A DNA stretch of 64,000 nt from Candidatus Gastranaerophilales bacterium (GTDB lineage: Bacteria > Cyanobacteriota > Vampirovibrionia > Gastranaerophilales > Gastranaerophilaceae), in NCBI GenBank assembly GCA_944323145.1, contig CALURJ010000009.1, forward strand, positions 1 to 64,000. The letters run 5' to 3'. The notes below the pieces were generated by a model. It had not been told where the DNA came from. It ran no database searches and was given only the letters and a program-made list of their open reading frames with translations. Both the position numbers and the translations under genes were made by a program. Numbering within the stretch: position 1 is the first letter of the stretch; each line of letters begins with the position of its first letter. This document shows positions 13,576 to 18,054 of this stretch, in pieces.

Positions 13576-13734
13576 AAACAGAATCCTTTCTTACCTGATA
13601 AATGCCGTTATAAAATACTATAAAATCTTATAATAGTATTATTAAGTATTTTGTAATTTTATAAAGACCTAATTCTGCATAATTATTATCTAATTCTCTC
13701 AAATACAGAACCTTAAAAATTTTTCGGCATAAAA

Positions 13735-13966
13735 TTTTAAGGTTCAATTCTCACACCGGCATAAAAAAACAGGCCAATAAGGCTGTTTTTCGGTATCAAC
13801 GGGAATTTGCTTAGTCGTAGGCGAGAATATGAAATTCGAGCCGTACGAATAAGTATGCAAAGCTTACCTTTAAAATTTTCCAACAGAAAATTTTAAGGTT
13901 CAATTCTCGCGCCGCTATAAAAAAACAGGCTTATTGAGCCTGTTTTTTTCGGCGGCAACGGGAATT
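13735..13966. repeat. Diverged duplication anchored at the tRNA-Glu 3' end
   Basis: Segments 13735-13807 and 13891-13966 are similar (offset 156-159 bp). Read on the minus strand, each starts with AATTCCCGTTG (the 3' end of tRNA-Glu), has a CAGGC..GCCTG terminator hairpin and ends with GAGAATTGAACC. On the plus strand the ends look like two orphan tRNA 3' ends (GGTTCAATTCTC followed by CACCGGCA or GCGCCGCTA). Confidence 0.7.
13924..13949 (-). terminator. Terminator after tRNA-Glu
   Basis: AACAGGCT..AGCCTGTT with a T7 run directly after the tRNA 3' end on the minus strand. A related hairpin is in the duplicated copy near 13765-13790. Confidence 0.8.
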
Positions 13967-14021
13967 GAACCCGTGTCAACAGAATGAGAATCTGCTATCC
14001 TGACCCCTAGACGATGCCGCT
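13950..14021 (-). tRNA. tRNA-Glu (anticodon CTC)
   Basis: D-arm after TCGTCTAGGGGTCAGGATAGC, anticodon stem GCAGA/TCTGT with loop TTCTCAT (anticodon CTC, codon GAG), T-arm ACGGG-TTCAATT-CCCGT. The acceptor pairs over six positions (GCGGCA/TGCCGC), but the first pair would be A1-C72, a mismatch. CCA is not encoded. Confidence 0.9.
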
Positions 14022-14095
14022 TTGCAACTTTATTTTACTACCGAAAATTTATTTATTCAAGTAGTTGAAGATAATTGTGTAGTGCCGTTTTAAGC

Positions 14096-15004
14096 TCAGT
14101 TTAATATCAATGAAGCCCCGTTGACCATTTCCTTAATCCCGCTTCTTAAAGTAATTGACGGGACAAAATGAAGTAAAGAAATTAATTTATTGTTTGAAAG
14201 TACAGATTTTTCAATATCGCCTTCTCGAGAAGACGTATATTCCGGTTCAAGTATATAGCTGGTTTCTTCTTTCAAAACTTCAAACAATTCATTTATTGAT
14301 GTTCTGGTATTTGTAGAAACATTAATTATTTCACCTTCAATATCGGATTGCAAGCCTATAACATTTACTTTAGCGACATCTTTTACATTAATAAAATCCC
14401 TATACTGTCTGCCGTTTCCATGAATTTTAACCGGCAAACCCTGTGACATAAGTGCAAAAAATTTTGCAACAACTCCTGCTTCTCCCGAAGTATCCTGCCC
14501 TGCTCCATAGACATTTGCATATCTGAAAATAATATAATCAAGACCGCTGTATTGTATAAAATGTTCAGAAGCACTTTTTGTTATCGCATAGGGCGACAAA
14601 AAGGAAACAGGGTGTTTTTCGTCGACGGGTAAGTACTGAGGATTTGCGTAAACAGCAGCTGTTGATGAAAATATTATTTTTTTTACATTATAAAGTTTTG
14701 CAATTGTGCATAAATTAACAGTTGCCTGATAGTTATCACGGCAATCAATTAAGGGCATTTTAATAGAGTCCGCAACTGACGGTAATGCTGCTAAATGGAT
14801 TATATAATCTATCTTACTTTTCTTAAAAATTTCAGCTAATTCAAGCGAAGTAACATCCATTTGAAAATACTGGCAGTCTAAATATTGCGGTTTTTCTTTT
14901 CTGTCAACAACAATCACATTAAAATTATTGTCCAATAATTCTTTTACTGAATACCTGCCGATAAATCCCACACCACCGGTTACCAAGACAGTTTGTTTAA
15001 GCAT
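14096..15004 (-). CDS. NAD-dependent nucleotide-sugar epimerase/dehydratase
   Basis: 302 aa extended SDR. Rossmann motif TGGVGFIGRYSVKELL at the N-terminus, DVTS, catalytic SSTAAVY and the YAITKSASE (YxxxK) pair, with RYANVYGAGQ and a C-terminal sugar-binding part (RDFINVKDVAKVNV). It resembles GalE/RfbB-type enzymes that interconvert UDP- or dTDP-sugars; the exact substrate cannot be told. It overlaps the upstream sugar-transferase gene by 8 nt, so the two form a surface-polysaccharide operon under the candidate invertible promoter. Confidence 0.92.
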   Translation of the reverse strand: MLKQTVLVTGGVGFIGRYSVKELLDNNFNVIVVDRKEKPQYLDCQYFQMDVTSLELAEIFKKSKIDYIIHLAALPSVADSIKMPLIDCRDNYQATVNLCTIAKLYNVKKIIFSSTAAVYANPQYLPVDEKHPVSFLSPYAITKSASEHFIQYSGLDYIIFRYANVYGAGQDTSGEAGVVAKFFALMSQGLPVKIHGNGRQYRDFINVKDVAKVNVIGLQSDIEGEIINVSTNTRTSINELFEVLKEETSYILEPEYTSSREGDIEKSVLSNNKLISLLHFVPSITLRSGIKEMVNGASLILN

Positions 15005-16364
15005 GTCTTCCTCCTAAAGCAAGAAACACAGCTTTTATCAAAATTGAAATATCCCAAAATATATTTCTGTGTTTTATATAATACAGATCATATTGAAGCT
15101 TAACAGCTTCATTATCAGACGAAAAACAAGCCCCCTGGTTAATCTGCGCCCAGCCCGTCCAGGCCGTCTTCACACTCATTCTCAAAGAATAACCTTTAAT
15201 TTCTTTTTCATATACTTTTGCGACTTCCGTCCATTCAGCACGCGGTCCAACAATAGACATTTCTCCCTTTAAAATGTTAATCATCTGTGGGATTTCATCA
15301 AATCTGGCTTTTCGCACAAATTTACACCATGGAATAACCCTGTCATCCTCATCCTGATTTTCTACATAACCAACCTTTTTATTATCATTCGGGACAAAGT
15401 CATTATCATACATTGTTCGTAATTTGTATGCTCTAAAAATTTTTCCTCCTTTACCGACTCTGTCCTGAGTATAGAAAGGAGATTTTCCGTCTGTAAATTT
15501 AATACGTAAAGCTATATATCCTGTTATCGGAAGAGTTACAATCAAAATTATTAATGCTGCGGCAACATCGAAAATACGTTTACAGATATCATAAAATTTA
15601 GTATTTTTCGTACTAAAATAATAAGTAAACTCTTTTATTGAATAATCATCAACGAAATATCTTCCGGTTGCCATTTCATAAAAATCATAAATTGTATATA
15701 CCTTAACCTTACGTGCTATTACATCATCAGATATTAAGGCAAGTGTAAAAAGTTCATCCATAGGTTTATCAGTTGCAAATATAAGGATATCAATATTTAA
15801 ATCTTTAATTTGAGAAGTTAAATATTCTACCTGTTCATGAATTTTTTTAGGGTAATTTTCAGTATTTTTATATTCAAAAAAAACTTTAATCTCCATTTTT
15901 AAAGCATATTTATCTTTTATAACTCCGGAAATAATTTCTGCATTTTTACCTTTACCTATAATTAAAACATTTTTGACTTTTTTTATTCGAAACAAATAAA
16001 AATGAAAAACAATCCTGTAAAGCAGCAATAAAAGCCAAATAGTAAATAAATTTGCAAGAATAAACCAGACAGAATTTAAATTTGCATTTATAAAGTACAA
16101 AGCAATAGATACCGGAAACATTGCAAAAATAATACCTTCAAAAAGTAAATATGTATTTTTCAAAGTTATATTAAATTCTCTGATTTTATAATTATCTTTT
16201 AAAAACAAAACAATGCATCCTGTTAAAACAGTCAACAGAATTATAAAAATAATATATTGTTCCGGCATCTTAAATTTCGTATACCAGTAAAAAGTTGACA
16301 AAGCTATAATTGCAAAGTCAAATAAAAACATAAAAACAACTGACTTAGAAAGTATCCTTAACAT
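14997..16364 (-). CDS. Polyprenyl-phosphate sugar-1-phosphate transferase initiating exopolysaccharide synthesis
   Basis: 455 aa. Four N-terminal membrane helices, a CoA-binding-like soluble domain (VLIIGKGKNAEIIS), a further helix (DVAAALIILIVTLPITGYIA) and the C-terminal bacterial sugar-transferase domain: RIKFTDGKSPFYTQDRVG, FRAYKLRTM, ARFDEIPQMINILKGEMS and VGPRAEW. This is the WbaP/WcaJ-type fold that transfers a sugar phosphate to undecaprenyl phosphate. The start ATG follows AGAGGTAATG. It is the first gene of the operon, about 30 bp downstream of an inverted repeat of the putative switch. Confidence 0.94.
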   Translation of the reverse strand: MLRILSKSVVFMFLFDFAIIALSTFYWYTKFKMPEQYIIFIILLTVLTGCIVLFLKDNYKIREFNITLKNTYLLFEGIIFAMFPVSIALYFINANLNSVWFILANLFTIWLLLLLYRIVFHFYLFRIKKVKNVLIIGKGKNAEIISGVIKDKYALKMEIKVFFEYKNTENYPKKIHEQVEYLTSQIKDLNIDILIFATDKPMDELFTLALISDDVIARKVKVYTIYDFYEMATGRYFVDDYSIKEFTYYFSTKNTKFYDICKRIFDVAAALIILIVTLPITGYIALRIKFTDGKSPFYTQDRVGKGGKIFRAYKLRTMYDNDFVPNDNKKVGYVENQDEDDRVIPWCKFVRKARFDEIPQMINILKGEMSIVGPRAEWTEVAKVYEKEIKGYSLRMSVKTAWTGWAQINQGACFSSDNEAVKLQYDLYYIKHRNIFWDISILIKAVFLALGGRHA

Positions 16365-16392
16365 TAAAACATTACCTCTTTATAATTTTCAA

Positions 16393-16417
16393 TACATTTT
16401 ATTCAAAATGTATAGAA
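16393..16417 (+). repeat. Left 25-bp inverted repeat of the switch
   Basis: Begins TACATTTTATTCAAAATGTA, itself a dyad of 8-bp arms around ATTC, then TAGAA. Exact reverse complement of 16510-16534. A dyad with a short asymmetric centre is what a tyrosine recombinase core site looks like. Confidence 0.95.
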
Positions 16418-16491
16418 TGCAATAAATAAGACTGTTTTCAGGTAAAAATATCCATTTGTCTATATTTTTTTAATACAACAAATGTTTGTAG

Positions 16492-16497
16492 TATAAT
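16492..16497 (+). promoter_or_regulatory. -10 box inside the invertible segment
   Basis: TATAAT, preceded by the dyad ACAAA-TG-TTTGT. In the present orientation it points away from the exopolysaccharide genes and into the recombinase on its antisense strand. The -35 at 17 bp (TTTAAT) is weak. Confidence 0.45.
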
Positions 16498-16509
16498 AAT
16501 TCAAAAGAT

Positions 16510-16534
16510 TTCTATACATTTTGAATAAAATGTA
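16510..16534 (-). repeat. Right 25-bp inverted repeat of the switch
   Basis: Perfect inverted copy of the left repeat; the central tetranucleotide is GAAT here and ATTC on the left, so the sites are in head-to-head orientation, as needed for inversion rather than excision. Confidence 0.95.
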
Positions 16535-16554
16535 ATAAATTTTTTTTATACAAA

Positions 16555-17094
16555 CTACAGAACAAAATCCATGTAGCTTTTATTTATTTGTTCCTGCTCC
16601 AACCCTATGTATCTCAATGTTATAACAGGAGATGAATGATTAAATATTTTTTGCAGCATTGCTATATCTTTATATTTTTTATAATGATGATAACCGAATG
16701 TTTTACACATCGTGTGGGTGCCGAATTTCTCTTCAAGTTTTGCCTGCTGACATGCTTTTCTTATTGTGTAGTAAGCTGTTACCCTGTTTAATCTGTTTTC
16801 AAATTTTGTGATAAATAAAGGCTCATCCAAATCTCTATTTTTGGTAAATTCTCGAAACATCAATTTAAGTTTCGCATTTACAGGAAACTTCTTAAACTTT
16901 CCAGTTTTCCTTTCTTTGATTTGGATAAATTTTTTACCTTTTACATCTCCCACATCTAATGCCAATATATCAGAAATTCTTAGTCCACAATTTGTTCCTA
17001 TTGTAAAAAACAATAAATCTCTTTTATTTTCTGATAATATACCTTCAATCTTTTTCAAATCTGTCAATCTTCTAATTGGTTCTACAGTTCCCAT
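16555..17094 (-). CDS. Short tyrosine recombinase, probable switch invertase
   Basis: 179 aa, the size of FimB/FimE, with only a catalytic domain and no arm-binding domain. Visible active-site residues are Arg39 (CGLRISD), the Lys region (ERKTGKFKKF), His127 (THTMCKTFGYH), His153 (NHSS) and Tyr162 (RYIG). The usual HxLR motif reads HTMC, so the second catalytic Arg is Cys130; Lys131 follows. Related proteins usually show HTLRKTFGYH. The gene ends 20 bp from the right inverted repeat. Start after AGGAAAGGA. It likely acts on the two repeats, unless the Cys change has disabled it. Confidence 0.88.
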   Translation of the reverse strand: MGTVEPIRRLTDLKKIEGILSENKRDLLFFTIGTNCGLRISDILALDVGDVKGKKFIQIKERKTGKFKKFPVNAKLKLMFREFTKNRDLDEPLFITKFENRLNRVTAYYTIRKACQQAKLEEKFGTHTMCKTFGYHHYKKYKDIAMLQKIFNHSSPVITLRYIGLEQEQINKSYMDFVL

Positions 17095-17208
17095 AATTTA
17101 AATCCTTTCCTGTGTTTCAACTACTTATTTTTTATTGCAAAAAAGTTAAAATTTTGGAAAGGTATACATTACATTAAAAAAATTTATAAAACAAAACTAA
17201 AAATATGA

Positions 17209-17916
17209 TTATTCGCAATTTCTTTGTATACACAAATCTTCGCATAAAATAATAGGTATTTCTTCACCGGCTTTTGCATGGTATTTCAACCCAGGTGTAA
17301 TCAAACCCGTTATCAAACCGACAGTTGTACCGACAGGAATACCAATTGCATAACCCACACCTAACTTTGCAGGGTTCGGAATAAATGCAAAACCTGTACC
17401 GGCACCTGCACCAACAATACCAAGGCCGAGCGTGTATGCGGTAAGTTTTCCGGCAGTATTCCATGGGCCTTCTTTTAAAGAACCGTCTTTTGTCAGAGGT
17501 TTTGCGGACATTTCAAAAGCTGAGCCGTCCGGAAAAATTAAACACTCAAAATTTAGATAAACACGTGCATTTTTGTTAGGAATTCTCTGTTTTTCTATTC
17601 TTATTACCGTTGCAACCACTTTTGAACCCGCAGGAATAAGCAGAGTTCCTTCCTGCGTATAAATTGCATCAGAAACATCGAAATTAACCCTATCTCCCGC
17701 TTTAGCGCAATCAGACCAGAATTTACAGCTGTAAACGATTTTAAAAGCATTTCCTTTACAAATTATGTTTCTTAAGTTTGTTATTGTTACCATATTTGAA
17801 AGCGCGCCTTTTTCACAAAACATGTGTTCTCTTGCACATACCTGCTCATCGCAATTTTCTGCATAAACAGAAGCTCCAACAAACATAATTAACAATAATA
17901 ACAGTAGTCTTTTCAT
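17209..17916 (-). CDS. Exported protein of unknown function
   Basis: 235 aa from ATG 17916, chosen because it gives a classic signal peptide (MKRLLLLLLIMFVGASVYA) that the longer frame (to 18006) would bury. The mature part has many Cys (CDEQVCAREHMFCEKG, ICKGN, SCKFWSDC, CEDLCIQRNC), a beta-rich middle (SDAIYTQEGTLLIPAGSKVV) that resembles pore or VirB10-like beta domains only loosely, and two Gly-rich hydrophobic segments near the C-terminus that may lie in a membrane. No Shine-Dalgarno is seen; TATAAT lies 12 nt before the ATG. It is not in an operon. Confidence 0.7.
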   Translation of the reverse strand: MKRLLLLLLIMFVGASVYAENCDEQVCAREHMFCEKGALSNMVTITNLRNIICKGNAFKIVYSCKFWSDCAKAGDRVNFDVSDAIYTQEGTLLIPAGSKVVATVIRIEKQRIPNKNARVYLNFECLIFPDGSAFEMSAKPLTKDGSLKEGPWNTAGKLTAYTLGLGIVGAGAGTGFAFIPNPAKLGVGYAIGIPVGTTVGLITGLITPGLKYHAKAGEEIPIILCEDLCIQRNCE

Positions 17917-18054
17917 AACAAATAAATAATTATATATTTTTTCAAAAAATAACAGTTCCGCTTGGGTTAAATAAACCGGCTGTAATTTTACAAGCCATTC
18001 AGGCAATTCTCAAAAAATATTTCTCAAAATAACATTATTTAAAAAGGAGGAACT

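Follow-up and report, generated by a model that had tools for sequence, protein, structure and literature searches.

A putative invertible promoter with an adjacent recombinase gene before a sugar-transferase operon of Gastranaerophilales

Described inversion systems and the present locus

The FimB/FimE fimS switch of Escherichia coli comprises a segment of about 300 bp. The locus described here, with a segment of 92 bp, shares with it a tyrosine recombinase of about 180-200 residues made up of the catalytic domain only, short repeats and a putative inner promoter. It lies in the window, by which we mean the whole stretch of 64,000 nucleotides analysed, and differs from fimS in having a single recombinase gene that is co-directional with its target. 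The likeness to FimB/FimE put forward in an earlier note on this DNA holds for the small, catalytic-domain-only size and fails for the family, as the window recombinase scores 28.5 bits against a cut-off of 222 for NF007371, a model of tyrosine-type DNA invertases. Mpi of Bacteroides fragilis, to which the note also pointed, resembles the locus in that promoters of polysaccharide loci are inverted. Mpi, however, is a serine invertase with many distant sites, whereas the window has one local pair of sites and a protein with PF00589 as its sole recombinase domain and no serine recombinase domain, so that the parallel does not extend to the enzyme.

Invertible promoters of gut bacteria (invertons of the PhaseFinder class) are well known, for example from PMC11892184. 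The features common to these and the window are an intergenic segment, inverted repeats, a promoter (in the window a putative one) inside it, an adjacent invertase and surface-related targets; in the window the inverted repeats surround a short intergenic segment beside the invertase gene. The window copy differs in its occurrence in Gastranaerophilales and in an invertase without one of the catalytic residues. A literature search, with subscription journals largely outside its coverage, revealed no paper naming Gastranaerophilales together with phase variation, or Melainabacteria together with invertible. The inversion of hsdS by PsrA in Streptococcus pneumoniae (PMC7096588) likewise employs a tyrosine recombinase and short inverted repeats, and relatives of the window recombinase adjoin type I restriction genes. 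PsrA, in contrast, recombines the hsdS coding sequence, whereas the repeats in the window are intergenic and precede a sugar transferase.

The window stretch is best explained as a phase-variation switch encoded in cis with an invertible promoter, a reading to which we assign a probability of about 0.82. The small tyrosine recombinase would take the two dyad repeats as recombination sites and invert the intervening 92 bp, a segment proposed to hold a single outward-facing promoter. In the ON orientation this promoter would drive the glycosylphosphotransferase/epimerase pair with an mRNA start near 16423, and in the OFF orientation it would point into the 3' end of the recombinase gene, possibly giving rise to an antisense RNA to the recombinase. 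The assembled genome would represent the OFF state, most likely frozen in the lineage by the substitution R130C. Coordinates are collected in Table 1.

Table 1. Features of the switch locus and its surroundings (positions in the window)
Feature	Position	Strand	Remarks
tRNA-Glu (CTC)	13950..14021	-	adjoins cassette
Cassette (recombinase, switch and two-gene operon), about 3.1 kb	14062..17204	-	missing at the corresponding site in six relatives
NAD-dependent sugar-nucleotide epimerase/dehydratase, 302 aa	14096..15004	-	PF01370; 8-base overlap with the transferase gene
Polyprenyl glycosylphosphotransferase, 455 aa	14997..16364	-	PF02397; accessory copy, main copy G000:C6
Likely ribosome-binding site AAAGAGG	16375..16381	-	from sequence; aligned AAAGAGG in L096
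Left inverted repeat	16393..16417	.	25 bp, TACATTTT-ATTC-AAAATGTA plus TAGAA; putative recombination site, operon side
Invertible segment (predicted)	16418..16509	.	92 bp; predicted from homologous segments reversed between relatives
Promoter motif GTTTGTAGTATAAT	16484..16497	+	-10 TATAAT at 16492-16497; towards recombinase, away from operon (OFF)
Right inverted repeat	16510..16534	.	reverse complement of left repeat; 20 bp past recombinase stop codon
Tyrosine recombinase, catalytic domain only, 179 aa	16555..17094	-	PF00589, Pfam E 2.6e-21; R39, K63, H127, H153 and Y162 present
Codon 130, TGT (Cys)	16705..16707	-	second catalytic Arg (HxxR box) in 128 of 129 homologues

Repeats and operon of the window

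On re-reading the sequence, the perfect 25-bp inverted repeats, their asymmetric dyads, the 92-bp interior and the TATAAT were all found where the earlier note had placed them, and the same is true of the distances from the recombinase to the right repeat (20 bp) and from the operon to the left one (28 bp, with the ATG at 16364 on the minus strand). The two repeats match each other perfectly in inverted orientation with 92 bp between them, and each is itself a dyad, TACATTTT-ATTC-AAAATGTA, with an asymmetric centre, which is the usual form of the core sites of tyrosine recombinases. The pair scores 22.4, and the best of 360 dinucleotide shuffles made from homologous downstream regions reaches 11.8. 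By this comparison the pair is not a product of chance. The exact 25-bp repeat has no match in viral contigs.

Repeats that are each a dyad could also be operators of a dimeric regulator, which would require no inversion of DNA. A search of the 1.885-Mb genome, however, revealed the exact dyad at two places only, namely the left and the right repeat, which speaks against the operators of an unlinked regulator that the earlier note had named as a possible refutation.

The two genes of the operon carry PF02397 and PF01370, in agreement with their previous description as a sugar-transferase/epimerase pair. The nearest NCBIfam model of the transferase is TIGR03025, with 278 bits, slightly under the cut-off of 295.6. 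The C6 transferase is 63-90% identical to the copies in those relatives of the same genus that have one, and the window copy 52-57%; by these identities the latter is an accessory copy. The operon would be expected to alter the surface glycan.

The recombinase family in relatives

Close relatives of the recombinase are found across the genus, with up to a dozen matches per genome, and the comparison covers 60 regions of other genomes as well as 80 loci on genome contigs. Significant inverted repeats are present on the 3' side of the recombinase in 47 of 118 distinct loci; on the 5' side they are found in 2 of 113, and in the 360 shuffles they do not occur. Those on the 3' side begin 0-191 bp past the recombinase stop and mostly enclose loops of 90-180 bp. 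The repeat sequences differ between related loci while their position is the same. The same search gave no repeats at the other 71 of the 118 loci, several of which adjoin type I restriction genes, and members of the family therefore do not all serve a promoter switch.

The relatives were also searched for an inverted interior, as had been suggested, and reversed segments were identified at several pairs of loci. L086 and L087 share a collinear stretch of 96.9% identity that begins 1139 bp ahead of the recombinase stop and extends 1500 bp past it, except that the segment 181-369 bp after the stop, lying between TTCTTTATAGAATTTATATTGTGTATAGAA and TTCTATACACAATATAAATTGTGTATAGAA, is reversed and matches the opposite strand with 96.8% identity. 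A similarly reversed segment (97.9%) with collinear flanks separates L145 from L146, and L062 and L064, both encoded in one genome (G029), have a reversed segment of 94.2% identity within flanks of 84%. L027 and L097 also show a reversed segment, at lower identity. As the loci and species differ from those of the window, these reversals demonstrate flipping for this kind of unit rather than for the window copy. They bear out the earlier proposal of an invertible promoter with its recombinase in cis, as does a motif conserved in both orientations, and they point to DNA inversion as a means of phase variation among the non-photosynthetic Cyanobacteriota of the gut.

For 76 recombinases with 60% identity or more, contig ends within 200 bp were counted: 10 fall on the switch side and 1 on the opposite side (p = 0.006), which is consistent with both orientations being present in the samples. 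A search for the partner contig at the suspected assembly break of L090 returned the known end only.

The operator reading was rejected on two grounds, the restriction of the dyad to two sites and the reversal of segments between relatives; related loci moreover carry other repeat sequences at the same place. The pair L086/L087 largely refutes it at the level of the family, and for the window we regard it as very improbable.

Conventional -35/-10 scoring of the interiors was uninformative at most loci, the window included, and was replaced by a de novo motif. In the window region a simple sigma-70 scan gave fewer matches than in its own shuffles, and no clear -35 was found beside the promoter motif. 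The de novo motif obtained from the 47 interiors, which reads GTTTATGTTATTAT / TTTGTTTGTGTTATTATA in the promoter sense and resembles an extended -10 element, scores 529 as compared to 398-419 in shuffles. When scored with held-out training, from which listed close relatives were also excluded, it reaches p <= 0.05 at 21 loci and is directed towards the operon in 12 and towards the recombinase in 9 of them. All but one of these 21 significant motifs are within 35 bp of the repeat that they face, where 29% would be expected by chance. The held-out score of the window copy, GTTTGTAGTATAAT, corresponds to p about 0.03; its TATAAT would be poor evidence if taken alone and is significant as a member of the family-wide motif. 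We take the motif as a putative promoter. Its direction towards the recombinase agrees with the earlier assignment of the sequenced orientation as OFF, and the inverted 92 bp would carry the -10 at 16430-16435, facing the operon.

Catalytic residue, cassette and related loci

Across 129 aligned recombinases, R39, K63, H153 and Y162 are invariant and H127 is present in 127. The second arginine of the RKHRH pentad, which is found in 128 of the 129, is replaced by Cys130 in the window recombinase alone, leaving its pentad incomplete. The position aligns with the HxxR-box arginine of the XerA structures, and the recombinase of L096 retains the residue. The pentad is described as strictly preserved otherwise (PMC8138268), and its residues build the pocket around the scissile phosphate (PMC7096588). 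Judged by domain and homology the assignment to tyrosine recombinases stands, while activity appears doubtful: loss of the second catalytic arginine should abolish or strongly lower it. The protein would be the recombinase that acts, or once acted, on the window repeats.

Both repeats and the remaining catalytic residues are intact, so that Arg130 was either lost recently or is masked by a one-base assembly error; Cys130 could be a consensus error of a single assembly. As the second catalytic arginine is missing from the recombinase, the switch is probably stuck in the OFF orientation, and we lean towards a state fixed OFF in the window lineage. A fully active switch, in a population that flips normally because Cys130 stems from an error in sequencing or assembly or because another recombinase acts in trans, is a variant of the same explanation and departs from it solely in the present state. 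It agrees with the otherwise intact conserved positions, with two repeats that are still perfect and with a paralogue of 56% identity and intact active site in the same genome (C4:111289-111828). The exact dyad, however, is found neither near this paralogue nor elsewhere in the genome, the paralogue adjoins type I restriction genes, and the locus lies on an unbroken contig in the OFF orientation only, as read from one assembly of the species. An active switch is therefore considered rather unlikely, and a frozen one is preferred. A broken invertase beside repeats that are still perfect makes a natural case in which to examine how the state of a phase-variable trait is fixed.

Recombinases of this type are common in phages and plasmids, chiefly of Firmicutes. 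Their identity to the window recombinase is below 60% throughout, and they are thus uninformative on its function.

The recombinase, the switch and the operon together form a unit of about 3.1 kb that looks mobile by sequence comparison. The orthologue of the gene at 17209-18006 comes immediately after the tRNA-Glu in six relatives, and G022 has 17 bp in place of the 3.14 kb of the window. An orthologous unit, L096, is encoded in another species (BRZ_FE bin44), where the recombinase is 77%, the transferase 68% and the epimerase 69% identical; the repeats are present, and an interior of 103 bp carries the same motif, also in the OFF orientation. Nucleotide similarity to L096 is confined to the region from about 17109 to about 14121 of the window, and the flanking genes differ. 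L096 is situated beside tRNA-His, the window unit beside tRNA-Glu, and the site corresponding to that of L096 (tRNA-His and response regulator, C4) is empty in the genome of the window. The different sites in the two genomes and the empty sites in relatives mark the unit as an accessory cassette.

Such tRNA-adjacent places and empty sites would also be expected if the recombinase and its sites served integration and excision of the cassette and not promoter inversion. The repeats, however, are internal to the cassette, whose ends show no terminal repeats besides one 11-bp inverted match, and homologous repeats flank the reversed segments in relatives. We therefore consider integration and excision improbable as the role of the repeats and retain promoter inversion.

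The stretch 13700-13900 of the window, between a hydrolase gene and tRNA-Glu, contains by eye sequences that look like degenerate 3' ends of tRNAs and like terminators, which are perhaps remnants of past insertions at tRNA-Glu.

The comparison indicates that the inversion switch recurs as a regulatory module, the targets of which relate to the surface, the pilus and restriction. A broader picture, which we put forward tentatively and hold slightly less probable than its opposite, is that Gastranaerophilales possess exchangeable promoter-switch cassettes with a shared motif and up to a dozen recombinases per genome, that their targets include glycan, adhesin-like, pilin and DNA-methylation genes, and that individual cassettes are locked in one surface state once the active site of their invertase is lost.

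A number of related loci have other neighbours. Switches of the same kind are placed immediately before genes of pilin-like proteins with the N-terminal sequence AFTLAEVLITLGVIGVVA in L062, L064 and L067 of G029, the first two in opposite orientations within that one genome. Switches of L074 and L080 precede N6-DNA-methylase-like genes, with their best promoter-like matches oppositely directed. A second group of recombinases (52-57% identity), comprised of L050-L061 and C4:111289-111828 of the own genome, is often found by type I restriction-modification-like genes and without simple promoter repeats, similar to the shuffling of hsdS by PsrA. Among L029, L034, L040, L041, L046 and L048 there are recombinases that follow a phage-virion-like ORF (MSDPIEIKIDNKEIESRLLDLAKR...) in a prophage-like setting, and in L040 a small ORF resembling helix-turn-helix regulators follows the switch. 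A second, distant recombinase (26-35% identity) is encoded shortly downstream of the first in L030, L094, L109, L111, L112 and L116.
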